64,000 nt of DNA from positions 434,001 to 498,000 of the forward strand of contig CAXKVV010000043.1 in the NCBI GenBank assembly GCA_964058805.1. The letters are read 5' to 3'. The stretch is from Schoenoplectus triqueter (lineage: Eukaryota; Streptophyta; Magnoliopsida; Poales; Cyperaceae). The notes under the pieces were generated by a model that did no database searches, was not told where the DNA came from, and worked only from the letters and a program-made list of their open reading frames with translations. Made by a program: the position numbers and the translations under genes. Within the stretch, counting starts at the first letter, position 1. Every line of letters starts with the position of its first letter. Shown here piece after piece: positions 18,456-63,722 of the stretch.

Positions 18456-19225
18456 TGTTGACCTACTTGTATATTTATTCTGAAATGGATTATCTTGAGA
18501 TTTATTTCGAATTTTTTGAACTCGAAATACTATTCTAAGTTCTGACACAGATGTTTACTCTGGCAAACAAGAACAGAAAAGGCGATTGACAAGTTGGAAG
18601 CTTCACTTTGATTAATGCATGCTTTAATGGTAATTCTGAGATGTTTAATAGCTCATTTTGTGATAGTATATGTAGTTGGTTAATTATGTTATTTTGTTTA
18701 GCGGTGTGGGCTTAAAACTAAGTTATTTTTTTATTTATGGAGTAGATGAATATTATGTTACTTGGTAGTAGTTCTTAAATTCCCATGATACAGGAGTGTG
18801 GTATCAAAGAATAATTTATTTCAATATGAAACAGATGGTATATAGCCACTTTTAATAAAAAAAATAAACGAAAAACTGAATTAAATAAGAATAAAATAAG
18901 TTACTAGATCAGGGAGACGAGAGATACTGCTCTGAAAGCTATTTTCTTTATAATTCAATTATGTTTACAAAGTGTTTTCTCTCTCTTATCTCTCTTTACA
19001 CTACTCCTCTATTTATAGTGCTCGGTGTCATTAATGCACCTGCAATCCTATATAATCAATCTAATCCTAGCTATCATAGCTATACATTGGCATTAATTGC
19101 CTAGCCACACTTTCTGTCATTTCCACTGCTGCTCCCATCAGCTGTCTTTAACACACGCGGTAGATGTCAGAATTGTCATGTTCATTATTTAGGACAAGGG
19201 CTTCATCCCGAACTCCCTGATGTTC
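18456..19225 (-). repeat. Copia 3' LTR with an internal insertion
   Basis: It begins TGTTGACC like the other LTR and ends at GATGTTC, where similarity between the LTRs stops. It is about 290 bp longer than its partner because of foreign sequence at 18578-18868. Confidence 0.8.
18578..18868 (+). mobile_element. 291-bp insertion inside the 3' LTR
   Basis: This block is absent from the partner LTR at the same position (AACAGA/CGAAGAACTG there). It begins with sequence that can be read as the tail of a coding region (AIDKLEASL then a stop) and ends in an A-rich tail, AATAAAAAAAATAAA. A retroposed transcript end or SINE is suggested. No clear target-site duplication was found. Confidence 0.4.
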
Positions 19226-19865
19226 CTGAGCTGTTGGACTCTGGTCCATCCCGAGCTTTACTTTTCACACTCGTTCGTGCTTGATGTTGCTGCTGCTTCT
19301 TCGAGTTCAGCTTGGGGCATCTCGAGGTGGTCGGGTTCCCGAGTTCTTGGTCATTCGGGATCGGGACTTGGAGTTTACTACTCTCAACATCCTCCATTAA
19401 ACTCAAGCCTCGCTCCTTCATCATCCCGAGCATCTGCTTGCAGTTTTTGAATAATGGCTTCGGCATAACCTTTGTGAAAATATCTGCAACTTGATCATTG
19501 CTTTGCACATGAACAATTCGAACTTCTCTATTCTTGATATGTTCTCGGATTGAATGGAATCTCACATCTATGTGCTTGCTCCTCTCGTGATGTACTAAGT
19601 TCTTGGCTAACTCGATAGCCGACTTGTTATCGACCTGAATCTCGGTCGATTCAAGTTGTGGGCACTTCAGCTCCTGTAGCAGCATTCTGAGCCAGATTGC
19701 ATGGCTTACGCCGAGTGATGCTGCAACATACTCGCCCTCACAAATGGATAGTGTGACGATGGGCTGCTTCTTCGATAACCATGTGAAGGTTGTGTATCCC
19801 ATGTAGAATGCATATCCCGAAGTTCTCTTCTGATCATCAATGTCTCCGCACCAGTCACTATCCAC
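19226..19865 (-). pseudogene. Copia RNase H region
   Basis: The open frame 19865-19203 carries the Copia RNase H pattern: DSDWCGD, TSGYAF, TWLSKKQ, CEGEYVA, DNKSAIELAKN and HIDVRFHSIRE, then ADIFTK. The last part, rich in S, Q and G, runs into the LTR. It has no usable start and is separated from the reverse transcriptase fragment by a stop and frame change. Remnant only. Confidence 0.85.
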
Positions 19866-20999: not shown

Positions 21000-22165
21000 T
21001 CATTTCTGCTCGATCCTTTGTAAGTTCAGCTTGAATACTCGACTATTTTTCAAATGTAGAGTCCTCTTCTTCATGAAGATTTCGAACCCATTTTCCATTA
21101 ACTGGCCCACACTTAGAATGTTCATCTTTATCTCCGGAATATAGTAGACATCTTCTACCATCCTAAGTTTTCCATTCTTCTGGAGAAACTTCACGTTGCC
21201 TTTTTCTTTGACCTCCACCTTAGAGGCATCTCCGAAGGAAACTGTCCCGGCTAACTCGATCATTTTGGTAAATAAATGCTTGTGACCGATCATGTGATTG
21301 CTGGCTCCTATGTCTAGATACCACACAGTGTCGCATCCCGAAGTCGACGGAGTTTGTGCCATCAACAACACTTTCTCATTTTCAATCACTTTGGCGTAGT
21401 TGGTTTTACCTTCTACTTTCTTCTCTGCCCAACAATCTCGAGCATAATGCTCATGCTTACCGCAATTGTAGCAATCTACATTGGGTTTGTTTTCTGCCTT
21501 CTTAGCTTCTTCCTCGTCCTCGCGAGGTTGGGCTTGAATGTCCCGACTGGCTCGACTCACCTCGATCACGTCATCCACGACCTCCTCGGCTGCGTGCCTG
21601 TTGTGCCTTCTGCACATACAGCGCTTTCTCTTCGAGAACCACCTTAGCTTGAAGGGTCTCCTCGAGAGTTTCTTTCTTCTTAAGGTTCTTCCTCTGCTCA
21701 TGTGCTAAGAGCGAGCCGGTGAGTTCATCCACAATTAGCGCTGCCAAGTCTTTTGACTCATCTATCGCACATACCATATTTTTGAATGTGTCGGTCAACG
21801 ATCTCAAGATCTTCTCCACCACCCTATGCTCCGAGAGACTTTCTCTTCAGTTGATTTGTTACCGTCTGTACTCTTGTGATATAGTCCGAGACTCCCTCAA
21901 TGTTGTTCATCCTCAGCATCTCAAACTCACCTCGTAGTGTTTGGAGTATTATCTGTTTTTTTATCCGCTACTTTCCTCTCCTTCAACAGTTTCAGCTGTT
22001 GCATAGTCAGAAGTGTGACATTCTCGGGTTCAACATACCCATTCTCGACTATATCCCACACATCCTACGCTCCTAACAGGACTTTGATCTGGATGCTCCA
22101 ATTGTCGTATTTCGATTTCATCAACTTGGGTATCGATATGTTGAGTGAACTGTTCCTAAAACTAA
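21000..22165 (-). pseudogene. Copia gag, zinc knuckle and protease
   Basis: Gag starts near 22165 with a YDNWSIQIKVLLGA-type motif that runs into an amber stop at the expected DVWDIVE continuation. Downstream frames give a coiled-coil-like lysine/glutamate segment, a CCHC knuckle (CYNCGKHEHYARDC) and a protease whose active site reads DIGASNH rather than the usual DTGASNH or DSGASNH. Several frame breaks separate these parts. Confidence 0.8.
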
Positions 22166-24366: not shown

Positions 24367-25534
24367 TTCTGAAGAACCAAAAGTAGAGAATGCATGCCAT
24401 CATGGCCTGGTGGACCCCACCATGAATTTGAGAGAAGCAATGGATGAAATAAATGATATATTTTAGATGATAGCAGTTTTTCTATCTTATCAGATGATGT
24501 ACTGGAAAATAACACAAACCCAACCCATAAACCAAATAACTTTTCAGATAGCAGCTTTTTCTATTTACCAGATGATGAACTGGAAGAGAACACAAACCCA
24601 ACCAGTAAACCAAACAACATTTTGAAGGGCGGGAACTCAAAAAAAGGTAAAAGTAGTTTTGGTGACGAACCAATTAACAGTTCTGGGTCTGCTAACCCAG
24701 CAACTGAAGTCAAATCAAACCCAACCTGTAAAAAAGTTGAGGAGGGATGAAGCTGTGATGGTTTGTTTGAACTAGGGTATTGAAGACGGTCCGGTCCGGT
24801 CCAAACCCGGACGGTCCACGGTCCCACACGGTCCACGGTCCACGGTCTCGCACGGTCCAAACGGTCCGGTCCAAGGCGGTCCAAATTCGAAAAAACCAAA
24901 CCCGTCCCACCGTTGGCCCCCGGGGGCCGGACCCCCACGGGACGGTCCGGTCCGGTCCAATTTTTTATTTTTTTATAAATCGAAAAAAATAATAATTTAT
25001 CATATTTTTTAATAATAATTTCTAACTAATTCGAATTATTATTTTTAATTGTTTAAAAATCTAATAGTACTAAAAAATTAAAAAAATTGTAAAAAATAAA
25101 ATTTCAGAAAATTATAAAAAAATAATAAAAGTTGAAAAATAAATTTATTAATTTTTAAATAATCATTTTCATCAAATTAATTATGTATTTTTGAATAATT
25201 ATTATTTTTGAATAATTTAAAAATCAAATAATACAAAAAAATACTCACGGTCCGGTCCGGGACGGTCCGGTCCACGGTCCCGCACGGTCCACGGTCCGGT
25301 CCGGTCCGGTCCACGGTCCGGCACGGGACGGGTCGGCACGGTCCATTTTCGGGTGAAGGGAGGACCGACCCACCGTTGGACCGGACCGTGGCCGGGCACG
25401 GTCCGGTCCACGGTCCGGTCCGGTCCGGGACGGGTCGGACCGTGCGGTCCATTTCAAATCTCTAGTTTGAACCAACATTTTTCACTCGGCAAGCCATGGA
25501 TGACATCAATGAGATGTACTGGAAAGGAAATTGA
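24367..25534 (+). pseudogene. BUB1/BUBR1-family gene fragment, interrupted
   Basis: Plus-strand coding remnant. 24367-24460 encodes VENACHHGLVDPT followed by NLREAMDEINDIF, a hallmark of plant BUB1-family spindle-checkpoint proteins. It is followed by acidic DDSSFSILSDD and DDELEENTNPTSKP stretches and, after the hAT-like insertion, PTFFTRQAMDDINEMY. Removing the insertion and one 8-bp duplication restores continuity GLFEPTFF. Stops occur at about 24755 and 25532, no kinase domain or start is present, and the left border touches a Copia scrap. This is a displaced internal fragment, not a gene. Confidence 0.6.
24773..25464. mobile_element. hAT-like non-autonomous element, copy 1
   Basis: A 692-bp element with termini TAGGGTATTGAA and (reverse complement) TAGAGATTTGAA. 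It is flanked by the perfect 8-bp duplication GTTTGAAC (24765-24772 and 25465-25472), the hAT hallmark. Both subterminal regions (24786-24960 and 25245-25450) are GC-rich arrays of CGGTCC / GGTCCGGTCC / CACGGTCC units; the core is very AT-rich. There is no transposase. The long frames with DRTGP repeats are artefacts of the array. Confidence 0.85.
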
Positions 25535-25652: not shown

Positions 25653-26969
25653 CACTAAAAGATCACTTCAACAGATTTTGAATTTAATAACGGATTTTAA
25701 AACCCTTTAACAATGGTGAACCGTTATTGAAGGAGGTGTTAGAAAAATATAAACAATCGTTGTTAAAAACGCGCTATTAAAACCGTTTTTAAAAGACATT
25801 TAACAATGATTCTTAACTAATAATTATTATTAAAGATCCTTTAACAATGATAAAAATCATTGTTAAAGGGTTCATTAGCAAAGATTAAATTAAAAATATA
25901 TATATATTAAAAAGTACTTTTAGCAACGGTTTTTAACTAATAACCATTGCTAAAAGACCCTTTAACAACGATTATTAGTTAAAAAATCATTGTAAAAGGT
26001 ATTTTTTGTAATTTAACTGTCTTTAAAAGGTGCAAGTCAAATTGATATTGAGTCGTATTGATTAACAGTAAACAATAAATATGAAACCGTATTGATTAGA
26101 TAAGAATAAATATTGTTCATTCAATAATTAATATGAAATAAATATAATTATTCATGAAATGAAAAAATCTTTACTCAAAAAATATATACATCTTGCTCAT
26201 ACAATAATATGAAAATCTATACAATTTCTAAGGAAAAAAAAACAGAAAAAAAGCTTCAAATGTGTTTTTGAGGTTGAAGATGAGGATTTTTGGTCTTGAA
26301 AATGGCGGTAACAATGTAAGACGTTAGCCTATATATCTCGTCGTTAGCTTTCAGTGACCGCGTAGAATGCCTCAATCGGAGTTTCCTATCAAAAGTTATG
26401 GCCGTTTGAAGTTGAGATGGTCGGATTTCAGTTTTTATTTCTTTTGTCTCTCTTCTCTCTTTTTTTCTTTCTTCTTTCTCTCTATCCTCTCTCTTTTTAT
26501 ATATGAAAATAGATGAAAATGGGGTGGTAATCCGTAGAATTTTAGTTTTTAAATTTTTATTTTTAGAACATTGGATTGAGATTAACGAACGATGAGATGT
26601 GCAATCCGTAGGAGCAAATATTATTGGTGAGAGCAAAAAAACAACTGTCAGAGCAAATGTCAGATCCAAAAAAGCAACAAAAATATTTAGCAACGGTTCC
26701 TTGTTGCTAAACACACAATTTAACAATGGTTTCAAGCATAGAACCGTTGTTAAAGATAGTCTTTAACAACAGTTTCTTAAAGGAACCGTTGCTAAATGAT
26801 TCTGCTGTTTTTTAGAGTTATGGGAGTATTTTAACAATATTTTTTTTATTATAAACCGTTGTTGAAAAGTTGTCAATATTACAATGATATCACTGAGTTA
26901 TTTTAACAACATATTTAATATATAATCGTGGTTAAATGAGTATTGTCTAAGTTGATTTTTATTGTAGTG
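25653..26969. mobile_element. CACTA-like non-autonomous element
   Basis: It begins CACTAAAAGATCA and ends TTTTATTGTAGTG, i.e. CACTACAATAAAA inverted. Both ends hold many direct and inverted copies of a unit like AACAATGGTTT / AACCGTTGTTAAAG, typical of CACTA subterminal repeats. The interior has no transposase. The 3-bp flanks do not match, so it is old or wrongly bounded. Confidence 0.5.
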
Positions 26970-32203: not shown

Positions 32204-32637
32204 CTTTTCACAAAAAAAAAAAAATCAAAAGTAATTTCTTTTCCTTGCTGAAAGGCAGACAAGATGCTAAGAACAAAAATGCTCTAAATTGAAAAAAAAA
32301 AATGTACAAAATGGAGTTGGAATCTTTCAACTGCGAACGCGGAATTAGTCTAACGAAGCGACAATGATTCGATTTGAGATTTGAGGAACGGAATGCTTCG
32401 ATTTCTATGGGACAATAAATGCAACTGAAATGTCTAGTGGGGGTCTACTGATGACCCGCTCCGCTCTCAATTTCTCAGAAGGAGAGGTGGGAGTGTTGGC
32501 TAAGTTAGTAGAGAGAGAGAGGAGAATGGGTCTAATGTAGCTATAGCCTGTAATATTTGTCTGTTTTTGATTGATTCCATGCAAGGCAAGGCAAGGCAAC
32601 GAAAGGGTAGAGAAGACTTTGACCTGGTAGTACCAGT

Positions 32638-33512
32638 TAGAGTATTGAACACGGTCCGGTCCGGGCCGGTCCGGTCCAAACCCGGACGGTCCACGGTCCC
32701 GTACGGTCCACGGTCCCGCACGGTCCGGTCCAAGGCGGTCCAAATTCGAAAAACCCGAACCCGTCCCACCGTTAGCCCCCGGGGGCCGGACCCCCACGGG
32801 ACGGTCCGGGACGGTCCACAGTCCGGTCCGGTCCGGTCCAAATTTTTTTTTTTTTATAAATTAGAAAAAATAATAATTTATCATATTTTTAATAATAATT
32901 TTTAACTAATTCGAATTATTATTTTTAATTGTTTAAAAATCTAATAGTACTAAAAAATTAAAAAATTTGTAAAAAAATAAAATTTCAGAAAATTATAATT
33001 TTGGAAATACAATAATTTTTTTTTATAAACATGCTTAATTAAAAATGAGGTGAGTTATTATATTTTGATGTTATCTAGAACATATTTTTTTACTACACCA
33101 ATAATTATTGTTATTTTTATTTTATTTAAAACTACACATAATAGTTATTATATTTTGATGTTATCTAGAACATTTTTTTTACTACACCAATAATTATTGT
33201 TATTTTTATTTTATTTAAAACTACACATAAAACACTAATTGTTATTTTCATTTTTACACGGTCCGGTCCGGGGGTCCGGTCCGGGACGGTCCGGTCCACG
33301 GTCCCGCACGGTCCACGGTCCGGTCCGGTCCGGTCCACGGGTCGGCACGGGACGGGTCGGCACGGTCCATTTTCGGGTGAAGGAAGAACCGACCCACCGT
33401 TGGACCGGACCGTGATAGGGCACGGTCCGGTCCACGGTCCGGCCACGGTCCGGTCCACGGTCACGGTCCGGTCCGGAACGGGTCGGACCGTCCGGTCCAT
33501 TTCAATACTCTA
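32638..33512. mobile_element. hAT-like non-autonomous element, copy 2
   Basis: An 875-bp relative of the element at 24773. Its termini are perfect 12-bp inverted repeats TAGAGTATTGAA, flanked by the perfect 8-bp duplication GTACCAGT (32630-32637 and 33513-33520). It has the same GC-rich subterminal arrays and the same AT-rich core start, but carries an extra tandem 90-bp duplication. It lies 435 bp upstream of the pseudokinase start codon, in the likely promoter. Confidence 0.88.
33054..33233. repeat. Tandem 90-bp duplication inside hAT-like copy 2
   Basis: The unit starting GTTATTATATTTTGATG at 33054 repeats at 33144 almost unchanged. It is absent from copy 1, so it arose after the copies split or marks a different subfamily. 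Confidence 0.75.
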
Positions 33513-33520
33513 GTACCAGT

Positions 33521-45677: not shown

Positions 45678-46017
45678 TCTGGTCATATAAATATATGTAT
45701 ATTTAGTACTATGAAAGAAAAAATTCTAAACAATTAGATTTATGTTGAGAATGTGTACATCAAAGCACACTGTATAGTATAAACAAGCAGCAGTTAATGT
45801 ATTTACTTTTTAGAATGTTCTTACTCATTTAGTGGAAATCAAGGTTTAAGGTCTTGCAACCCAGAATGAATATTTGAACATATTACTACCCAAATTCATA
45901 AATTAGAAGATAATTGAAAAGTACATATTACAATACCATAGATAACCAAGAACTGCTAATCCAATGTTAACTAGTAGAACGTGAATAGTGGAGACCTTAA
46001 TTTTTTTTAATCAATTT

Positions 46018-49000
46018 CTATGTTCCCAACTTCATTTGCGCCAAGTTCAACTCCTTGAGAACATCTTTGATAGAAATGCGATCTTTTGGCAACTCTTTGG
46101 AGCACAGAAGCCCACATTGAATGACTGAAATCAAACAGCTATAGACATTTTCAGGTGCAACCATTTTGTCTTGTCCAACAATTCCTGAGAAGAGTTTGGT
46201 GTCGATTATGTCCATGATTTCTTCAGGAAAAGCCATCTCAACATACTTTTGGAGGCTCAAACTATCACCGAATCTTTTATCGGTGGGGCTTACTCCAGTG
46301 AACATCTCAAGAAGAAGAATGCCGTAGCTGTAAACATCTCCTTCTATTGATGGCCTGCGACCCATACCATACTCTAGACAAAAAAAAAAATGTTGTTACT
46401 CCACCAATTTAGTATGATTCATCTGTTTATTCATATTTGGCATCACGTGATTATGTGTGTATACATAACATGTGTTGTCTGGTTTTTCCAATTATGTAAC
46501 CAATGGTAGAAAATAATGTTAGCATATATACATAATTCATGAAAAGCACCATAATTTCAGCATCTACGTGGCAGAGTTTGCTATTTGTTTGTTTGAATCT
46601 TAACTAACAATACAATTTATTTTTGTTGCCTCCCTTCAAAAAAAAAAATACAATTTATTTGTTCAAATCATCAAATGACATGCTAAGGGAAAAATATCTA
46701 TAATCTCAATTGTACCTGGAGGAATATAGCCAATAGAACCTTTGATTCCACTGGCGATTGTCATTGATTGGGAAAGTATCGTATCAGGTCCGACCAAAAT
46801 CCTTGCTAATCCAAAATCACCCACACGTGCAGTCATGTCATCATCCAAAAGTACATTGCTAGGTTTGAGATCACAATGGACAATTGGTGTGGACCCATAA
46901 TAGTGAAGATACTCTAGTGCTGATGCTACATCAGTTGCAATGTCCAACCTCTGGACCAGGGTGAGGCTTTTAAATGTTTCATCTGTGTTCTGATGCAACC
47001 ATGTTGCTAAGTTACCATTTGGCATGAACTCAAAAACCAAAGCCTTGAAATCATTGCCTTGGTGGTCTATGCTTGAGCATAAATTCAACAGTTTGATGAA
47101 ATTCCGATGTCTCACATTTTTCAGTGCCTCACACTCAGAAAAAAAACTTTTAGTAGCCCCTTGTCTCTCAAGATTTAGCACCTTTACTGCAACGGTTGTC
47201 ACATTATCGAAACTCATGACAGCTTTGTACACTGTACCAAATGCGCCTCTTCCAATTAGATTCTCCGATGAGAAATTTTTAGTGGCTATGAGAAGGTCAT
47301 TGTATGAAACATGATTCAACTCGTGTCTCAATGGTCTATCAGATTGTTGATTATTATGAGGCCTTTTTCGAAAATAACAAATTACCAACAGCCAGATGAC
47401 AATGGACAAACAAATAAAAGAACTAACAATAGAACTTATGAGCACAATTTTTCTTAGAGAATGATGACTCTGTGTCGAAGGTTCTAAAATGCATTGTGGC
47501 AAATATAATTCAGGTACTCCACCGCAAAGTTTAGGATTTCCTCTTATGTCAATGACACTAATGTTCTTGAAAATGCCTTCTCTTGGTAGTTCTCCCTCGA
47601 AATTATTGAAAGAAATATTTAGATATTGCAGGTTCATTCTACCAATAAATTCAGGAACTTGACCGGAGAAAGAATTGTTTGAGATATCAAGTTGTTGCAA
47701 ACCTCTCAAGCTGCTCAAGGTGGATGGAAGTGTCCCTTGGAAAATATTATTATCAAGATAAAGGCCCTGAAGCAATTGACATCCACCAATTGTGCTAGGA
47801 AGCTCTCCAAATAATTTGTTGTTTGAGAAACGAATTGTTTGTAGGTTTTTTAAGTTACCAATTTCGGGTGGCAAGATGCCAGTAAGATAATTGTGTGACA
47901 AGTCCAAACTGATTGTAAGAGAAGATAGGCTCATGATTTCTTTCGGAATTTTGCCCGTTAGCTTATTATTTGATAAATTTAAGAGCAATAAACCATGCAT
48001 GTTAACTAATTCCGGTGGTATGCTCCCTTCAAATTTATTATCGTTTAGGGATAGCTTGGTCATCTTAGTGAGATTGCCAAAATTTGGTGAAATTTGACCT
48101 GAAATCAAATTATGGGACACATCGAAAAGTTCCAATCTGAAAAGATTCCCGATTTCATCTGAAATGGTGCCACCAAGAAGCATGTGGTTAAGTTCAAAGT
48201 AGTTCAAATTAGAGAGCTTTTGAAGATCTGTTGGTATGGCACCTTTGGTTGGGTTATTAGGCATTGAGAGTTCAACAATACTAGAAAGATTTGCTATGGA
48301 ATTTGGTAATACTCCTTGGAGGTGGTTCTGTCCAATATCTAGATATCCTAATGATGTAAAATTGGCCAAAGCATCAATAAAGCTCCAATCACTAGGTGTC
48401 TTAGCCTCTAGTTGATTATCGATGAGACTAAAGTAATAAAGATTTTTTATGATTCCAATGTTATATGGTACAATGCCACTAAAGTAATTTGAATCTAAGC
48501 TGAACTTCGTTAGAGCAGAACAATTAGATATGGATGATGGGATTCGGCCACTGAGTTGATTTTGAAATAGGGCTAAACTTTCCAGATTTGGGAACGCATC
48601 ACACATATCAAAAGGTAGAGTTCCTTCAAGCCGGTTGTAACTAAGTTGCAAGGTAACCATTGCTGATATATTGTAAAGGGAGTGTGGTATTTCACCCGAA
48701 ATGTTGTTACCATGGATGTTAAAAAACTGAAGGTTTTGAAGCTTCCCAAGTGTATTGGGGAGGAAACTGCTTAACCTATTTTCGAAGAGACTTAGCTGTT
48801 TAATATTATTGAGATTACTCAAGGCAGATGGGATGGAGCCACTTAATTTATTTTGGTGAAGAAAAAGATTTATTAAGTTAGTAAGATTTCCTAAGAAGGG
48901 CGGGATGGGGCCAATAAGGTTATTTTGTTGAAGATATAAAAGGTGGAGGTTGTTGAGATTACCCAAGGTAGATGGGATTGCCCCACTTAAACTGTTTTGG

Positions 49001-49938
49001 AAAAGGGAAAGGTGTACTAAGTTTGTAAGGCTCCCTAAGATGGATGGAATAGGACCATTAAGGTTGTTTTGATCAAGACGCAATGATATCAGGTTAGTAA
49101 GATTGCCTAATGGGAGTGGGATGGAACCAATGAAGTTATTTTCGAAGAGAGAGAAGTCTGATAGATTAGTAAGTTTGCCCAAACTATCTGGAATGTAACC
49201 AGCTAAATTATTTTGGTCAAGATAAAGGAATTGTAGGCTACTAAGATTGCCTAAGGTGGATGGTACGGGTCCTGTAAGATTATTCACAGATAGTCCCAAA
49301 ACAAGAAGCTGAGAGATAAGACCGAAGCCTGGAGGTATGCCTCCTATGAGGAAGTTATTTCTGAGATCGATAACTTTAAGTTCTTTGCATTTTGCTAGAG
49401 TGGATGGGATAATTCCATGGAGATTATTGTTTCTCAAAGAAATAGCTTCTAGTTTGGAACAGTTGCCAAGAGTAGACGGAATGCTACCCTCCATTGAATT
49501 CACGCTCAAGTTGACAACACGTAACCTCTGCAAGTATCCAAGCTCAACTGGAATATCCCCTTGAAGATGGTTATCAGAGAGACTTAAGTTTTGGAGAAAT
49601 GTGAGGTTTGCCAAGGATGGAGATACATAACCTGATAATCTTTTGGAGTCCAGAATAAGAGCAGTGACTCTATCAGGATACTGCTGGCCACAGAGAACAC
49701 CTTGCCATCTGCAATGATGAAGGGAATCATTCCATGAGGACAGGACTCCAAACGGGTCACCAAATATTTGGGACTTGAAGGAGAGCAGCGCTGATACATC
49801 AGTACTACTTTTACTACTGGGTGCTTGGGCTGCAAGAGGAGATGAGAAAACACTTACGAGGAGGAGAATAGTGAGGAAATGGTAATGAGGAAGCCCAATT
49901 CTTTGTGCCATGAGTATGATGGGGTGGTTACTCTCCAA
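46018..49938 (-). CDS. LRR receptor-like kinase, subfamily XII type (non-RD)
   Basis: Two exons, 49938-46716 and 46373-46018, join as PP/EYGMGRRPS to 1192 aa, longer than the ~1000-1050 usual for EFR/XA21-like members. A later Met (MAQRIGLPH, residue 11) is an alternative start. Signal peptide ~17-38; N-cap with WNDSLHHCRWQGVLC; some 27 LRRs from ~100 to ~795; membrane helix ~831-855; kinase ~885-1180 with GRGAFGTV (897-904), catalytic-loop-proximal K919 (VAVKV), HCDLKPSN (1021-1028) and DFG (1041-1043). The Cys before the catalytic Asp makes it non-RD, the class typical of pattern-recognition receptors at the plasma membrane. The intron position, just before the EYG motif, is conserved in subfamily XII. 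No lesion seen. Ligand unknown; a role in immunity is inferred from family. Confidence 0.93.
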
Positions 49939-50011
49939 AATAATGCGCTTCTTGTAATTTGGAATTGGAAGAGTTGGAGATGATTAGAGGAAGTAGCTGA
50001 TAGCGTTAACG

Positions 50012-50142
50012 TGTGAAGAGAGTGAGGAATCATCTAATCACGAGTATGACTGGCTCATATAATCGCGACTGAAACTGAAACTGAAACTGAAACTTTGGGG
50101 CCGACATCAATAATGTGAAGAGAGTGAGGAATCATCTAATCT
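50012..50142. repeat. Direct repeat and GAAACT array in the LRR-kinase promoter
   Basis: GTGAAGAGAGTGAGGAATC followed by ATCTAATC occurs near 50013 and again near 50114, about 100 bp apart. A short (CTGAAA)n run lies between at about 50068-50093. The segment is immediately upstream of the receptor kinase start. Confidence 0.6.
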
Positions 50143-52143
50143 AATTAATTAAATAATTGAAGTGTAACGTGCTCAATTTTGCTTCACATAACGTGGTTAA
50201 TTAAATAATTTAATCACGTGCCCGCATGTGGGCAGGATTTTCCTCCCATAATCATATATAAATTAATCTGTAACTAACTATTGATATTAATTTTTGATCC
50301 AATCAATTATCTTTAACCGTGTTTATTTCTTCTGTTATTAATCATAGCTTTCCATAATAAAGATTAGTTTGTTAAACTAATACAGAATCACATCCATTCT
50401 AAAAAGGCCAAAACAAATGCGTTGCATGATTGCATCTGTCATCAGTCAAGTCAACAGGGAATCATATTAGGAAAAGCAGCAAAAGCAGGTCCTACAAGGA
50501 GACCCAAAGTCAAATCATGCGCAAGAAGATACAAGGAAGCTCACTTTCCCCCAAAATTTGATTGGTTATATGAATATTCATCATAAGGCCATCAGAACTT
50601 TGTCGTTAAAATTTCATAAATTATCTTGAAATAGAAGAACACGTATGCATAGGAAAGAGTTAATTAAGAGGAGAGGAGGGAGTGAACAGAGACAGAGTGC
50701 CGAGATTTAATTGTACAAAATAGATGGTTTGAACTTTGAAGAAGCTTGATATGTATCAAGCTAGAAGCTACTGATGTATGACTGGTTTCATAGACTAGAA
50801 TGATATGGGTAATGGGTTTGAGCCTTAAATTCAAAGTTGTTGATTAACTAGAATAGAAAAGACAATTCTGAATTGATAATGATATCAAACTTTGTGGGTC
50901 TCATTAATTTGCTTTTCAGTTTCCACTAAGAGTCTAAGATAAAGAGACTTACCAGATTGAGACTTGTCCAGAGTCTTTTCAATTCAAGCCGCTTGATGAA
51001 ATGAAATCCATCAAGATCTATGGTATAATAATAATACTTTATACTCTCGGTTCACTATTCTGTTAATTAGACAATATGCTAAATTTCACTTCGTTCGACC
51101 TAGCTATTTAATTTAGAATCAAAGTACTGTTAAGAAATTATAGTGAAATAAAACATAATGATGAGTAACTGATTTTATATATTATATTAAAAATGATTTG
51201 TATTCTTTATTGCTCTGAGCCTCGCTTCAGCCTCTGAGCTACGGTTTCATTCTTACCGAGAACAGACAATCGGTCTAAAGGAACGGTTTAGATTTGCCTG
51301 AATCATACCATTACCATCAAGTCCCTACAATTGGAGAGAAGCGGTGCCTTAGATTTTGCACTTTAATATATTAAGTGGGGATCCTAATCTGCTGTTATAA
51401 TAACTATAGCAGGATTGTGCAATGGTTCTTTTGGCTCATTGGATTTGTTTGAATGACTCAGATTTTATTATAAGAGATGCTTTTTTAAATGTGAGATCCA
51501 CCAACATAAAACAAAAAAATATATAATAAAATTTGCCATACAAATAAGTATGGTGTGGTGCACAGAAATATTCCATTAGAGTATTTAATAAGCATGAGGC
51601 AAAAACTTTCAAATTATGACTCCTTAATTTATGAAGGCTTTCATAACTCTTTTAAGTTTTTTCTCGATACGATCAGCAATTCATAGTGATGATGATGGAC
51701 TTTTATCAACTATCAACATCATTTTGTTATTAATATTATGATGATTATTTTGTTGGATAAACTTAATTAAATAAATTGATGATGTCGGCAATAGTGTGAA
51801 TGAAGCAAAGTTGAAAGTCAAAAATAGTGGCTGCTATGCCTCATGCTGCCAACTAGATCTGCGACCTTTGCCGTCCATAAAATAATAGGTCGCCTTAATT
51901 AATTTTATATTAGTTCAATCGGGCTCTTTCACAACAAAACGAGCACTTAGCACTTGCTAATTCCAACTATAATCAATCAATCAAACAATCAATCAAATAA
52001 GGAAATAACTTCCAAATATTGTCATTTGTCATTGTCAAATAAGGAATGAACGTTCCCTTGTCAGTTGTCACCGGTTAAGTTACAACTTTCCAAATAACAT
52101 ATCTTCAAAATATAACTAAAACTGAAATAACCCACACCATAGT
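50143..52143. other. Gene-free intergenic DNA
   Basis: About 2 kb without a supportable gene between the receptor kinase and the LTR at 52144. It is AT-rich, with no clear repeats. Confidence 0.5.
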
Positions 52144-52774
52144 TGTTGAGTATATTTAATAGTGGATACAATTCATATAGTGGTAGAGAGAAGAGATGGA
52201 GGAAACAAACAAGTTCTTATCTGAAAAACTATTTGTAATTCTCTATTATATTATCTCTCTTACATTGTCTTTGGTGTCTTTGGCTCATTTTCATCATCGG
52301 ATAAAGGTGAAGATGGTTCGGCCTGTGATGTTTTAAAAGACAATAACTATAGTCAAGAAATCCTAAAATTTTCATCCCCAACTACACTGAAATTCTGCTG
52401 AATTTCTGTTGCACCAGTTTTAACTCTCTCATATGTTGAGAATTCTTTCCACCACCTATAAGAGTTAGAATTCATGGAGAAGAACTAGAAGATCATGGAG
52501 AAAACTTTCAATTTCCCAATCAAGATGTTGAGAAGGCTTTTGTGGACCGTTCTTGGTGGATACCATTGGAGAGGATCTCAGTTGTTCTCTCGGTATCGTG
52601 CGCGTCTCCCGATCATTTCCTGCCCTTCTGGTGACTCAAGCACGCATCAAAGGTATATCAATCTTATTTATAACTTATATTTGATTCAGTTTAATTCATA
52701 TACAAGATCCTTTTTGGTGTTTTAGATGAATTTTTTTGAATTTATATACTAGTTACACTGATAAAATCCCAACA
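52144..52774 (+). mobile_element. LTR of a truncated Copia-type retrotransposon
   Basis: It starts TGTTGAG and ends CCCAACA, so the ends are complementary TGTTG/CAACA. One base later comes a textbook primer-binding site TGGTATCAGAGC (52776-52787). Downstream, no gag or pol could be found and no second LTR was seen, so the element is cut short. Confidence 0.7.
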
Positions 52775-52775
52775 G

Positions 52776-52787
52776 TGGTATCAGAGC
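52776..52787 (+). other. Retrotransposon primer-binding site
   Basis: TGGTATCAGAGC is the exact complement expected for the 3' end of plant initiator methionine tRNA, used to prime reverse transcription. Its position one base after the LTR fixes the LTR boundary and the element's plus orientation. Confidence 0.8.
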
Positions 52788-53634
52788 AATTGGTTGTTTG
52801 TATGTGATTTGATCATGGACAAATCAACAAGTTTATATAATTATTCTTGTTCTTAAATATGTTATCTTTATGATCATGCATTAATTATATTGAATCTCAT
52901 AAATAGTCATATGATTTGATTGATTTGTATAATCAAAACCCGTTTTGTAGCGTGGTTGATAGGTTTGACATGATTTACTTGTGAAAACTCATTAGAACTG
53001 ATCTTAACTCCAATTTCTTGCTTTTCTTGGGGTTATTTATTGTTGTGACTGACCACGAGTTATCATTTAAGATTAGCCTTTTCAGTTTTAGGGCCTTGGG
53101 CTTAATAGGTCATTGATCGGGCATCGAAATAGAAGTCAGTTATTTTTGAATAGCAGCTTAACCAATTAGGGTTGCCTTTCCTTGTGATTTTTTGATCACA
53201 TTGAAAGTGAAACTGAATTTAATTGTGCATGATTATTAGATTATAAGATTAGGATCGATTATAATCAGTTTATGCAAATGTTGCACCGTGCTAACTTTGT
53301 TTTGCAGGGGCGAATTTGTATAGTCATATGTTCAATGTTTTGTGTGATGTACTGAATGCATGTGATTGTTTCTAATGTGGCTTAAGGTGCTCTATGGTAT
53401 TAATAATTAAATGAGAGCCTTGTTTACTCTCTTCTAAATTTAATTTAAGGTTTGCATGCCAAAATTTATTTAGGGTTAGGACCGAGCGCTTTGTAGGTTA
53501 GTTTACTTTTCATATTAGAATAGTTCTATTTGGGAAGGATAGTTAGATTATTGTTTTTAATCATGGTGATGATCAGAAGGCGATGATCAAACGTATTTGG
53601 AAGCACAAGGGATATACAAACTTGCGACATAATA

Positions 53635-53897
53635 TAGTTTAGTTTTAGTACGGTTATAAAGTGAGAACCGTTATTGAAGTTCAAGAATTAATAACGGTTT
53701 TTTGTCAGAGCCGTTATTAAAGCCTTATATTAAGTAAAGAACCATTACTGAGGCTCTGCTTTTTCACCTCCCAGCGACGCCCATTTACTAATGGTTGTTT
53801 AAAACCTTTAGTAACCTCCCTCTTCAATAATGGTTCATGAACCGTTATTGAATGGTAAAAAAAAATCGTTATTAATTCTTTTTTTTTTCGTGTAGTG
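53635..53897. mobile_element. CACTA-like terminal fragment
   Basis: It ends TTTTCGTGTAGTG (CACTACACGAAAA inverted) and carries subterminal repeats of AACCGTTATTGAA and ATAACGGTTTT in both directions, similar to those at 25.7 kb. The left terminus was not identified. Confidence 0.5.
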
Positions 53898-55345
53898 GAT
53901 TAAGAGAAGGGATGAAATTACAGTAAAGAGACAGATTTGTTTTTTGTTTTTGTTTTTAGAATGACTAGAAGAAAGAAAAAACTGGAGAAAGTAAATAAGT
54001 TTTCTCTGCTGTTTAAAATTGAATAACTGGCACTTTTGTGTTAACAAGTATGAAATAAAGTAAATGAAAACTTCAACTCACTATGATACAGAAGCAATGC
54101 CACATGAAATCTCGTTTTGATATCAATACTATATCTTTCATCTGAACCATTGATTTATTTTTAGATTCCATCTCAATCATTGAAGAATCTACCAGATATT
54201 ACACTCTTAATATAGGAAAAATAGATATGTCATTATCCGAGTTAAACACAAATTAATACATCTATATTATATTATAAGGAGCATATGTATTGAAAACGTT
54301 AATTTGTTCAATGTGATCTCATATAAGTGAAATGCCATATATACATTTTAAAAGATAGATAATGTAATGACTAAAATAGGTTTTTTTTTATTTTTTAAGT
54401 TCTAGTTGCGTGCCTATGAGAAAGTTAAATATCTAAACTTCTCAAAACTACAAATGTGTTGGATATGATGTTTTTTTTCATGTAAATGATATTTTTTTTA
54501 TGCATCAAAATAAAATTAATTAAGCAACAAAAGTTATGAAAAATGAGTAAGACACTAGGTACAAATATACTAGTCAATTATTTAATATTTGTCATATTAA
54601 GAATTAAGATAGACCTCGTGAATGACACAGGTTCTTTGCTAGTATTAGTAATATATAAATATACACATCAGATAAAAATAAACATTTACAATAATAACAA
54701 GATAAAAATAAAATAAAATAAATAAATATTTCGAATACATATAGAAACTTGCATCTAATAACCAATCCAATGGAGATATCCACTTCACACAACACTGGAA
54801 ACAATCAGCTCAAAGATAATTCTGTCAATCAAGATATTCGGAAGACAATCACTTAACTAGATTTTAGGGATTTTGTTTTATTTACAGCTCATACCTTCTG
54901 CCTATTAATAGAATGTAATAATCTCCAATACAGTAATGAAAAACACAATAATTCAATATACACCTGTATCACTTCTCTCTAATACAATTAATCTGTTCAG
55001 CATCATTGATTTTTCAGTCTTGTGAGGCTAATTTTGTGGTTTTCAATTTTTATTTTTCTTTATATAGAAAAATCGATATATATTTGTGTTTGTGTCCAAT
55101 CATATAATTTTACTTTATATAGGCCAAAGCTTCTGCGACTAGTTCGCTTTATTTGTACATATTTATGCTCAAGGGGAATTTAGGTGTTGTGCTTATTTAA
55201 TTTCCATGTCGTCTAGAGATTGGGTCCTTTTTTAATTTTTTTTGTATATTGGCCAAATTAATTATGAATGCATACATTGGCAATCGTTTTCAGCTATTCA
55301 AGTAATATCGTTATTTCTCGCATGCAGAGAAACAATTAAATTATA
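53898..55345. other. Upstream region of the 55 kb gene
   Basis: AT-rich DNA without a supportable gene or clear repeat. The last few hundred bases presumably include the promoter of the gene starting at 55346. Confidence 0.45.
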
Positions 55346-58300
55346 ATGGAAGCTGGTGCTTTTGTGGATGATGATAAAGGATGTGAAACCAGATTGAAAA
55401 TTATAAGCACAATTATTACCAAACTTCGTCACTATGATCAGAGGTGGCTAAGGCCTAGTGCTTCACAAGAGAAGTCCTACGAAGCAGCACTCGCTCACAT
55501 AGCTCGTATTTGTTCAAACAACACAGATACGCCGCTCCAAGGTAAATTAAGTTAGTTTCTTAATATATATATATATATATATATTACTAGCTACACAAAA
55601 GTATTTGTGACAGTAATTAATTGTATTGCAGGTTCCATCTCATGTTGTAATCTGAAGAATTGCATCAAAAGCACCAGCCGTAAACAATGCCTGAGAGAGG
55701 TACTGACTCTGTTGCAGGCAATGGAGCGCAAGCGCTTGTACAACCCCCCAGCTGATGATGAAATCCAACACTACATACGTATTAAGAGACACATTAGATC
55801 ACTAATCATTTTTTTCGATGCTCGTGTTGGTCATCAACCAGACACATTAATAGGCTATATGTTTCGCCCTAGAACACTGGACTTCCTCTGTAGTTATGCT
55901 GATCTTAGAAGTTTGTTAGAAATTGTGGAACTCGGTTGGCATTTTGCAGATCTCTCAACTTATGTTTCAGATATGGATATAAGAAAAGGCAAGTGTTGTT
56001 TGTGTATATGTGTGCGTGTGTCTATATATACATATTCATAGATCAAATAGAGCTATCTAGACATAGATTATTGTGAAAATATTTGCACTTTGGTCAATAT
56101 GCAACCTCCTAAAAAAAGTTATTATCCCCCTAAAGTTTCAATTTATGGTGCTCAATGATGGATTAATATTGAAATCTTATGGGAGACGATTTCTATTTTT
56201 ACATTTTTCAACCATTTTTTTTTTCAGATTTTCTAAGATTGCTTTGAAATATTAATAAATTTTGTATATTGAAATAGATCATCTAATTTTTTTTTGAAAC
56301 AAATACTCAAGAAAAATCTAAAAATACAATTTTTTGGTCTCGCATGAGATTTTGATACAAAAAAATTATTCAACATCATAAACCAAAATTTCGAAGATGA
56401 TAAAATATGTTTTATGTGCTTGCATATAAGCTGAAGTGGAAATATTTTCACAGTATATATAACACATTGATAGATCAATGTATAATTAAATTAATCATTG
56501 TTTGAATTATTTTTATGATGTAGGCTCATCAATAAACCCCTGGATGAGTATAAAAAATGATGAGACAGAACCAACTGTTATTCATGGGAGCAAAGAGAGA
56601 AACAACGTGTTTTACTGCCACAAGTTTGAGTTAGCAATATTGGACCTGCACTCAACCGAGTTTGCACTCAGCTCCGCTTCGGCTGATGAGGAGAGATCCT
56701 ATCTCCAAGTCTCTGGTTCCTTGCCAGATGTGGACAGATATCAGATCTCTATAGGCAAGTATCACCTGCACCTGTACCTGCAATATTATATATTCCTTGA
56801 TTTAATTAAATTAATTGATAAATTAATTAGTTTAATTTCCAATCAAGAAAGATAGTGCTGACTATTAATTGTTTAATGGTTTATTCTCCAGGGAACCCAA
56901 ATATATACTCGGATGAGCTAAATTACCTCTTCCGTGAGAGAATATACCGGGAGGCTGGCAATTTAGTGAGAGATTTTAGAAGAATAGAAATTGCAATTTT
57001 TCGGATGCTCTCTATTAGTGACCACTGGGAGTATCTCAGCAAAGGAATCAATAATGCATACAGACACAATGAGGAAACTTTTGTTCATTTGGGAAAAGAA
57101 TTGGCTAAGAAATATCATGTGTCATACGAGGACCTTCCTGGATATATTACACGTGTTGATCGATGTCTTTTTATTGCATCTTACATAAGCAGACTTATCT
57201 TTTCTCCTCTTCATTTTCTCTTTCCGGGGGTATATGAAGCTCCACGTCAACATGCCTCATCGTTCCTTAAAGAAATAGCAGGATGGGAGGCTCTCCATGC
57301 AGCTACCTTCTTGAAGCATGGTAACACAAAACTTTAATAATTATCCCGCTACATTCATGCTTAACTATATATACTACTACCATACCACGAAGGAATAAAA
57401 GGAATTTGATATCTTTAGATGGGTTTCCTGCAGAAACGAAACATTTTTTAAGTGCCTTGGTTTCCGTTTTGTGATCAGTGCACTGTGCACCTTTTTGCGA
57501 TTTTCAACTCGTGTACTGACATGAGAAAACCCTTTAACATTTTTCTTTCGAGTGATCATAGTTTTCTTACTCAATACTAGGTAGATATCTTGGTAGGGTT
57601 GTTTAATATCTGACAAGCATTAACATCTACCTGTCGTTACCAGTTTGTGATCTATTCTTGCTGCTATTTCAGGTAGCGTTTCCAATAGGATGTTATTTCA
57701 AAATCAACCCTGGGAACAGATGGTCCCTAAAGAAGGTATGCATGAATGAGATTCATTATTGATCAATCAGAGTTTTCTTTCTGTTCACAGCAGAATAAAC
57801 GCGATTTTGATAATGTTCCACGAATTAATTCATTAAAATTATAGGAACATATTTTAAATGAATTGATTGATGTTTTGTTAAAAATGATTTATAAAGTTGT
57901 ATAATTTGACTATATATCATTAGTTGATGCATTGAAGGCTGTTGGACTGAAACATATAGTTGAAAAAGTTCAATGGACAGTAAGACTTGAACCAAAAACT
58001 GCATTATGCATGGTTAGTCAATGTACATATCTATACTATATTAATGATGCCCCAAGTGTCAAAATCAAATTCCAATATTCATTTGTGAGAAAATTAAAAA
58101 ATCCTATTTTCAATGGATGGTAATTAAGTTCATGTTGTTATGGATGCTTCAATTATCATATATATATATATGAATGGTGGCATTCGTAGTCTGTGCACGG
58201 GTTTTGCATGAAGCTAAGAGGAAGTGTGCTCCTTGCGCATCTCCAGAAGAGGGCATGAGTGGGAATGTGAAAATCCTGAAAGAAATTATAGAAAAAGTTA

Positions 58301-61934: not shown

Positions 61935-62523
61935 GTGCACAATCGCATCAACTATTAGTATGAACATGGTACTAGACCTGGTACTGTGGTACAATATGGT
62001 ACAGTATGGTACCATATATTATGTTGGAATGCTGATAAGTGATATGATTGGATTCTGCTGCACAGGGCTTGTTGGCATAATTAAAACTATGCAATGTGGA
62101 CATTTATATGTCATCATTATATACATTTTATAAATCTAAAAAGAAAAATTATTTTTATATAAAACTTAGATATTTAAAAATATATCAAAAAAATGTCAAA
62201 TATTCCGTAAAAAACTGATTAATCAACCGCATAACGTTTAATCACTTCACGGTAGACTGACTGTTCGTCAAGCGCAAATTATTATTTACAACATACGTGA
62301 AAAGACTTACTCATCGTGATCATTTTTAGAGAAAACCTTAGACATCATCTTCTTCTTTTTCATATATATATATATATATATATCAAAATTCATTTGATTT
62401 GGAGTTTGTTTTTCCTCTTTGCGAAGCAAAATGGTATGATTACTTTTAATTTGTGCATATATATCCACACTCGAGCTTTAAATTTGATCTCAGGAGCTGA
62501 AATCAAATTTTGAAACTCGATCT
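61935..62523. other. Low-complexity DNA with GGTAC repeats
   Basis: Irregular TGGTAC repeats at about 61960-62015, a (TA)n run at 62361-62382, no gene. Confidence 0.5.
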
Positions 62524-63330
62524 CAATTTTTTATTATAAAATTTATATATTTAACTAATTATAAAAAGGAAGCGGGGAAGATTCAAAACTCTTTGAATCT
62601 AAAATTTGGTTTAAAGCCTCTTTCAGTCATTAATTTTATATCGAGATTTGTACTTTTATTTTTTTCTAATTTTATATGATGATTATTACGAATCTCGATG
62701 CAAAATCAAATTTTAGGTTCAAATGGTTTTGAACCTCTTTTCGTTTCAAAAAAAAAACTAAGATCAAATTTCAAATTCGATCCCAGCATCTAAGACCGAA
62801 TTTAAAACTCGGATAAAATTATGTACATATCATTTTGCTCTCTTCTTTTTTTATATTTACTAAAAAAAATTGCAAACAACGCCACAAACTAGGCTGCAAA
62901 AGTGTAAATAAATTAAGCGTAAAGTTCAATTTTTTATTATAAAATTTATATATTTAACTAATTATAAAAAGGAAGCGGGGAAGATTCAAAACTCTTTGAA
63001 TCTAAAATTTGGTTTAAAGCCTCTTTCAGTCATTAATTTTATATCGAGATTCGTACTTTTATTTTTTTCTAATTTTATATGATGATTATTACGAATCTCG
63101 ATGCAAAATCAAATTTTAGGTTCAAATGGTTTTGAACCTCTTTTCGTTTCAAAAAAAAAAACTAAGATCAAATTTCAAATTCGATCCCAGCACCTAAGAC
63201 CGAATTTAAAACTCGGATAAAATTATGTACATATCATTTTGCTCTCTTCTTTTTTTATATTTACTAAAAAAAATTGCAAACAACGCCACAAACTAGGCTG
63301 CAAAAGTGTAAATAAATTAAGCGTAAAGTT
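62524..63330. repeat. Tandem duplication of a 403-bp unit
   Basis: The unit from CAATTTTTTATTATAAAA at 62524 repeats at 62927 with only a few differences (for example T/C near 62647 and 63051, T/C near 62788 and 63192, one extra A). Near identity means a recent duplication. The unit has no coding potential. Confidence 0.9.
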
Positions 63331-63722
63331 CAAGCCTAGCTACGACTACGAGCTTTGGGCTACTGCTCACGGGTTATTTCAAATCAAAACCAACAAATCA
63401 TGAAATACAATTTTGAGAAAAGCGTATGTATTTAATGCTAGACGTGCAATTGTGCCTGACCGACGGGTTAGACAGATTTATATAATATTAATTAATAATA
63501 TTATTTTTAATAGTTCGAATCGTGGCCGTTCAATCTTTAAAGCGCGTTGTTAGAAATTATTATCGTGTCTGCTGAGCGGCACCGTATAGGACATTATTTG
63601 GACCGTTGGATCTCCTCGTAATTCACGCTGATACTAATCTCTAAGTAATATAACGAATCACGTTATGTGTGGTACGCTGCTGCGCAGCATAGGATCAGAG
63701 TCCGCTTGAGAGCGAGAGACGC
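63331..63722. other. Intergenic DNA before the edge gene
   Basis: No gene. The right end is presumably promoter of the gene starting at 63803. Confidence 0.45.

Follow-up and report, generated by a model that had tools for sequence, protein, structure and literature searches.

According to the available excerpts of the papers concerned, several hAT transposons (Ac, Tag1, Tol2, Herves and Hermes) carry a short word in several copies near both ends, where it is bound by the transposase (PMC3260210, PMC3143072, PMC10368747). In maize Ac/Ds, the word is AAACGG, which stands in several copies in the terminal 200 bp and is bound by the transposase (excerpt of PMC3260210). The repeated motifs bound by transposase are CGATTCAT in Herves and AAACCC and TGACCC in Tag1 (excerpt of PMC3143072). 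The repeats of Hermes are given as antisense for LE STR2-7 and as sense for RE STR1-5 (excerpt of PMC10368747). A sequence-only reading of the DNA studied here had known of no described family with the design of its element; as far as these excerpts go, that claim does not hold for the general design, which is the one just outlined for five elements. Ends rich in GGGTCGGGT are moreover common among plant hAT elements, so that a GC-rich design is less novel than it might seem.

The window, a stretch of 64,000 nucleotides from Schoenoplectus triqueter (Cyperaceae), contains at 24773-25464 a complete 692-bp non-coding, non-autonomous hAT element whose boundaries are exact in the sequence (Table 1). 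The coordinates and the perfect 8-bp duplication first read from the letters proved exact, with GTTTGAAC on either side. The 12-bp inverted ends of this copy, TAGGGTATTGAA (left) and TAGAGATTTGAA (right), are identical at 10 of 12 positions. The CGGTCC arrays claimed at both ends around an AT-rich core were also borne out. The 692 bp hold 32 CGGTCC and 4 GGACCG, that is 36 words against a mean of 1.2 and a maximum of 5 for both directions summed in 500 dinucleotide shuffles, and the GC content is 67.2% at element positions 1-186, 8.5% at 187-470 and 71.2% at 471-692. The most frequent 6-mers of both arms are CGGTCC and its shifts, not the AAACGG hexamer of Ac/Ds proper. By eye, recurring stretches, TTTAACAATG and CATTGTTAAA among them, stand out beside the element at 25700-26000 and are possibly another transposon.

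Table 1. Coordinates of the two family members in the window and of their parts.
Feature	Position	Strand	Basis or remark
Left target-site duplication GTTTGAAC	24765..24772	.	present once at the C378 empty site
Left terminal inverted repeat TAGGGTATTGAA	24773..24784	+	alignment of two-ended copies
Left GC-rich arm	24773..24958	+	14 CGGTCC and 0 GGACCG; word counts
AT-rich core	24959..25247	.	to about element position 470 (window ~25242) common with the 3' part of coding copies
Right GC-rich arm	25248..25464	+	CGGTCC mostly on + strand; element positions 471-692 hold 18 CGGTCC and 4 GGACCG
Right terminal inverted repeat, TAGAGATTTGAA reading inwards	25453..25464	-	alignment of two-ended copies
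Right target-site duplication GTTTGAAC	25465..25472	.	perfect 8 bp
Second family member	32638..33512	+	875 bp; TAGAGTATTGAA at both ends; found by scan for such ends
Left target-site duplication GTACCAGT of second member	32630..32637	.	end scan
Right target-site duplication GTACCAGT of second member	33513..33520	.	end scan

The second member is an independent insertion about 7 kb from the first. It has positions 15-345 and 477-692 in common with the first element, at about 85% identity, and the rest of its middle is different and includes, at 33053-33230, a tandem duplication of 89 bp. Two further pairs of candidate ends in the window, 45907-51062 and 51577-56790, were put down to chance, since their duplications agree at 7 of 8 positions and their ends are poor. 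Elsewhere in the window, two almost identical tandem units make up 62523-63333 (period 403, 2.0 copies, 99% matches), and a tRNA-Ser is predicted within them (TGA anticodon, 63117-63213, minus). At 46663-49938 (minus) lies a 1091-codon frame for an Xa21-like LRR receptor kinase; its nearest relatives, at about 60% identity, are in Carex rostrata and Rhynchospora, and it contains a 144-bp repeat at 48809-49078. Together with the nearest named transposase, from Carex littledalei, this frame by itself already indicates that the host is probably a sedge (Cyperaceae). By eye, 19203-19865 and 21000-21701 (minus) resemble pieces of a copia-type retrotransposon, one RNase-H-like and the other with a zinc knuckle and a protease-like part.

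Elements of this kind recur in the host genome. In the 82-Mb assembly (2086 contigs), the 17-mer TAGAGTATTGAANACGG has 66 matches against 0 for its reversed control, and CGGTCCGGTCCGGTCC has 315 against 1. The pattern ACGGTCCGGTCCNNNNNGGACGGTCCACGGT with 3 mismatches hit one place, outside the window, and was useless for copy counting. When 40 of 314 candidates were scored and 40 loci fetched, at least 19 copies aligned over both ends. Duplications were counted in these 19 of the 40 loci, the other 21 being left out. As a trait of the family, the 8-bp duplication is upheld by 15 of the 19, in which it is perfect, and by 2 with 7 of 8 positions, but not by the remaining 2 (L015 and L028), which have none. 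L026 and L027 have the same duplication and length and are probably a single insertion on two contigs. The commonest ends among the 19 are TAGAGTATTGAA (left) and TAGAGATTTGAA; short hAT inverted repeats have A at position 2 and G at position 5, and so do both of these. The terminus TAGAGTATTGAA quoted in the sequence-only reading is the left end of 13 of the 19 copies, but the window copy has TAGGGTATTGAA/TAGAGATTTGAA instead.

Empty sites were sought with the joined flanks of 20 elements (16 non-coding copies, the second window copy and three coding copies, without L015, L028 and the twin L027), for which 40 of 603 candidates were scored. Four of the 20 gave a continuous match with a single target: the window copy (L009), L012, L014 and L017. 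This target is unchanged in L009 and L014 and carries one change in L012 and two changes in L017. No continuous match was found for the other 16 joined flanks among the candidates scored. In 14 of 16 copies, points of divergence from the working consensus amount to 0.4-4.8%; the other two stand at 9-10%. The hAT family is real and fairly young-looking. Four loci (L042, L043, L044 and L046, on C898, C1144, C855 and C778) match positions 315-692 only and are perhaps another class of derivative with a different left part.

Some hAT dimerisation domains adjoin loci that match only positions 1-470 of the element (150 of 273 candidates scored). Three coding copies were read through: C140 (4852 bp, duplication ATCCAGAC/ATCTAGAC, 7 of 8), C208 (3701 bp, CTCATGAC twice, 8 of 8) and C471 (2934 bp, ATCCGCTG twice, 8 of 8). 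They match the 692-bp element from position 1 or 15 to 470 at 89-92% and in right-arm stretches at 81-87%. Coding copies with both ends thus exist, and C140, whose spliced model is open, is a candidate for the autonomous copy. The gene of C140 runs from the right end to the left end. Its exon 1 has 540 codons, exon 2 matches the RNase-H model PF14372 (E 3.4e-10), exon 3 matches the dimerisation model PF05699 (E 1.2e-21), and splicing at GT-AG sites is modelled to yield 797 residues uninterrupted by stops. C1191, found by the exon-1 search, is 99% identical to C140 in exon 1 and reads open; stops interrupt 75 of the 87 exon-1 matches (80 of 404 candidates scored). Just upstream of the C140 start codon, at L080:2240-2850, about six tandem copies of an AT-rich unit of about 105 bp were seen by eye.

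A profile of 36 homologues matches Hermes with E 1.6e-41, with the BED region and D180 aligned, and the alignment of exon 3 reaches E572, where the residue numbers are our own count along the alignment. We take D180, D248 and E572 of Hermes to be its catalytic D-D-E positions. D248 lies outside the printed profile alignment, and all 36 rows of the homologue alignment keep D364 of exon 1. As the Pfam BED model did not match C140 exon 1 at E <= 0.1, the assignment of the N-terminal BED zinc finger rests on the Hermes BED region in the profile match. Exon 1 was modelled with AlphaFold (mean pLDDT 76, below 50 over the first 128 residues), and the 12 best PDB matches to the predicted fold are all Hermes chains (best E 3.4e-13), at modest TM-scores of 0.34-0.40 by query length. 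An RNase-H fold and a C-terminal hAT dimerisation region accordingly lie between the same ends, and the coding copies are predicted to encode a Hermes-like BED/RNase-H/dimerisation transposase. Among the 100 homologues listed, those with names are mostly plant RICESLEEPER or 'putative AC transposase' proteins, the nearest named sequence to exon 1 is from Carex littledalei (65% over 44%), and the best-scoring one is an unnamed metagenome protein (63% over 99%).

The hAT-like identity first suggested by the letters is supported by the 8-bp duplications, by the empty sites and by full-length copies that have the same two ends and a hAT transposase. A short element with inverted ends would also fit another superfamily (Mutator, PIF/Harbinger or CACTA) or a chance structure; given the 8-bp duplications with empty sites, the TAG...CTA ends and the hAT transposase between the same ends, we find this scarcely credible. 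The 692-bp form has both ends in common with a coding copy and lacks the middle. Since coding copies have the same ends and a transposase, it is therefore a Ds-like derivative. Very probably, this non-autonomous form arose by internal deletion from a full-length hAT of the kind of the 4.85-kb C140, whose transposase would read the CGGTCC arrays and move the element. That the arrays are transposase binding sites is plausible, has indirect support and is their most likely reading. We propose that the transposase from full-length copies would act as a multimer whose many BED fingers jointly read the arrays, bring the two non-equivalent ends together and allow cleavage at the TAG...CTA tips, followed by reinsertion with an 8-bp duplication. 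By homology, a BED finger on CGGTCC, a multimer and mobilisation by intact-looking copies are all probable.

That the two ends are not equivalent follows from the direction of the arrays. In 20 complete elements, the 250-bp left ends hold 257 CGGTCC against 0 GGACCG, and the 250-bp right ends 305 against 68. When the left arm was aligned with the right, the direct orientation beat the inverted one in 7 of 7 elements tested, with scores of 85 against 34 in the window copy and of only 29 against 25 in C208. The tips are inverted, but the words are not mirrored: they keep a single direction throughout the element, which is inward in the left arm and mostly outward in the right. Complete non-coding elements carry 18-40 partly overlapping CGGTCC and the three coding copies 11-28; in some coding copies the arrays have decayed, as in C208 with its 11 CGGTCC.

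The arrays change in length between copies. Start-to-start spacings of 5, 7 and 10 account for 355 of 522, and arm lengths range over 167-213 bp on the left and 195-273 bp on the right despite low point divergence. Between the 14 copies compared, which exclude L024 and L026, the length of gaps of 4-24 nt takes the form 5a+7b in 156 of 157 cases in the left arm, 116 of 206 in the right arm and 35 of 100 in the core, against a baseline of 12 of the 21 possible lengths, though the pairs of copies are interdependent and any alignment of a periodic array will tend towards such gaps. As nearly all left-arm gaps fit and the right-arm gaps show no such pattern, these results suggest that units of the left arm, not the right, are gained and lost whole, in 5- and 7-bp steps. 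Differences between copies by array units, with 156 of 157 left-arm gaps of that form, are also what one would see if the arrays were a slippage-prone satellite carried passively, only the inverted ends being recognised. We consider this quite unlikely, as both arms are kept in all 20 complete elements examined, 17 of them without a gene, as the excerpts cited above describe hAT transposases that bind such subterminal words, and as sister families keep arrays at the same places and in the same direction with other words.

These sister families of the CGGTCC family (family A) came from ten relatives fetched by exon-1 matches 47-76% identical. Family B (C1954, C340 and C86) has 28 CGGGTC per element in its two complete members and 19 in one arm of C86; its arms have 0 CGGTCC, and CGGGTT is the second word (8-10). 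Its inverted repeats are TAGTGTATTAAAAT/TAGTGTTCTAAAAA, with duplications CCTACGTC in C1954 and TCCCAGAC in C340. In family D (C1889 and C670), the single arm seen has 14 and 12 CGGGTA, and CGGTCC and CGGGTC are absent there. Family-A arms, in turn, hold 0-3 CGGGTC in the forward sense. Among the others, C694 has 14 CGGGTC and a 7-of-8 duplication; C1969, with a mixed array (6 CGGGTG and 3 CGGGTC), and C439, with a sparse one, have TAGAGRTTTGAAAA-type ends and perfect duplications; C39 and C581 were read for ends and gave none that were clear. The direction of the word relative to the transposase gene is the same in families A, B, D and C694.

The many CG/CCG sites of the arrays had also been put forward as methylation targets. 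Among family copies, C-to-T (or G-to-A) changes at CG, CHG and CHH amount to 2.7, 2.8 and 4.7% in the left arm, 5.0, 2.4 and 6.4% in the core and 2.7, 2.8 and 3.7% in the right arm; A/T transitions stand at 0.3-1.4% against 2.4-6.4% for cytosine changes, although gaps in the repeats may hide changes. Decay specific to CG was looked for in both arms and the core, and no excess over CHH was found. C-to-T is raised, but at all cytosines and not more so at CG, so there is no CG-methylation signature, and the substitution pattern neither proves nor excludes methylation. The same data bear on the idea that the arrays serve chiefly host regulation, by methylation or nucleosome exclusion, and not transposase binding. 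The CpG-dense ends within AT-rich DNA and the raised cytosine changes, as in methylated DNA, speak for it; CG lies below CHH in both arms and the core, and a strand-specific orientation is not expected from methylation alone, which makes it very unlikely in our judgement.

We compared the array word with the predicted BED finger at 24 loci (twelve newly read and twelve earlier). In Hermes, all base-specific contacts are assigned to N67, R70, S66, Q64 and the main-chain carbonyls of R63 and T65 (excerpt of PMC10368747). A dense array, taken as 10 or more copies of a single word in the same direction by a threshold fixed after the counts were known, is present at 13 of the 24 loci; the finger tip of C694 could not be read, which leaves 12. 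The residue aligned with Hermes N67, a placement that depends on the profile alignment to Hermes, is Ala with CGGTCC (2/2), Gln with CGGGTC (8/8) and Ser with CGGGTA (2/2). The match holds in all 12, which come from three lineages only. Family D also differs at the positions aligned with S66 and R70, with Thr and Arg. Among the 11 loci under the threshold, Ala goes with 3-6 CGGTCC in C208, C1428 and C1383 and with no array in C1060 and C39, C768 has Gln and no array, C439 has Asn with a sparse mix, and C1759 and C581 are unreadable at the finger tip. C2061 has Gln with 9 CGGGTT and 1 CGGGTC, where CGGGTT is possibly C-to-T decay, and C1969 has Ser with its mixed array and not CGGGTA.

The finger region is also more divergent than the catalytic one in most relatives. 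Identity to family A over the 54-residue BED is 35 residues in C86 and C1954, 38 in C1969 and 20 in C1889, against 72, 69 and 62, respectively, of 85 catalytic residues; C439 goes the opposite way (33/54 BED, 48/85 catalytic). The N-terminal 128 residues are divergent, with 29-53 identical of 96-124 aligned (C1889, C86, C1954, C340, C1969, C694 and C439). It is conceivable, and we put it forward tentatively while leaning slightly against it, that sister hAT families have radiated by a joint change of subterminal word and BED-finger specificity, array turnover spreading the new word and each transposase moving only its own non-autonomous copies. Word and finger may instead each simply follow descent, as three lineages only stand behind the correlation. 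C1969 (Ser, mixed array) and C2061 (Gln, CGGGTT) speak against joint change. If joint change is true, a new word could spread through both arms by turnover of whole array units, which would separate the families. How a transposase switches its word when dozens of sites must follow is a question to which several answers seem to be present in one genome. The sister families with different words and finger residues are the part that deserves specialist attention, as each family is a substrate for the study of BED-finger specificity and of cross-mobilisation of non-autonomous elements.

The family was absent, by title or abstract start, from the papers listed on hAT subterminal repeats, Ac binding sites and methylation outside subscription papers, and, among the matches listed, from those with CGGTCC and transposon. 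By title, no paper containing CGGTCCGGTCC dealt with transposons and none containing CGGGTCGGGT and transpos with plant hATs; a plasmid collection gave no match to the element. The CGGTCC family is a hAT of a known kind, with dense arrays, and is probably undescribed. With the plant RICESLEEPER and 'putative AC transposase' proteins it shares the same kind of domains, the named plant proteins outside Carex being about 24-36% identical among the 100 listed. Its inverted repeat probably differs from that of Ac, which we take to be CAGGGATGAAA. Like maize Ac/Ds, as described in the excerpt, it combines a hAT transposase with derivatives that keep the ends, internal-deletion ones included, and unlike Ac, its array word is CGGTCC and not AAACGG (PMC3260210). 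Like Herves and Tag1, it repeats a short motif at both ends; the words are others, and those of Tag1, in the excerpted text, differ between its two ends. Hermes of the house fly is likewise among the closest known systems, with a BED, RNase-H and dimerisation transposase of detectable homology and with subterminal repeats that, in the excerpt, are read by BED fingers (PMC10368747). The Hermes sites are described there as 5'-AAG(T/C), 17 and 14 per end, not GC-rich, unlike the CGGTCC arrays, and they belong to an animal element (PMC10368747). If the excerpt gives the Hermes repeats inwards from each tip, they too run one way along the element, as the CGGTCC arrays do.
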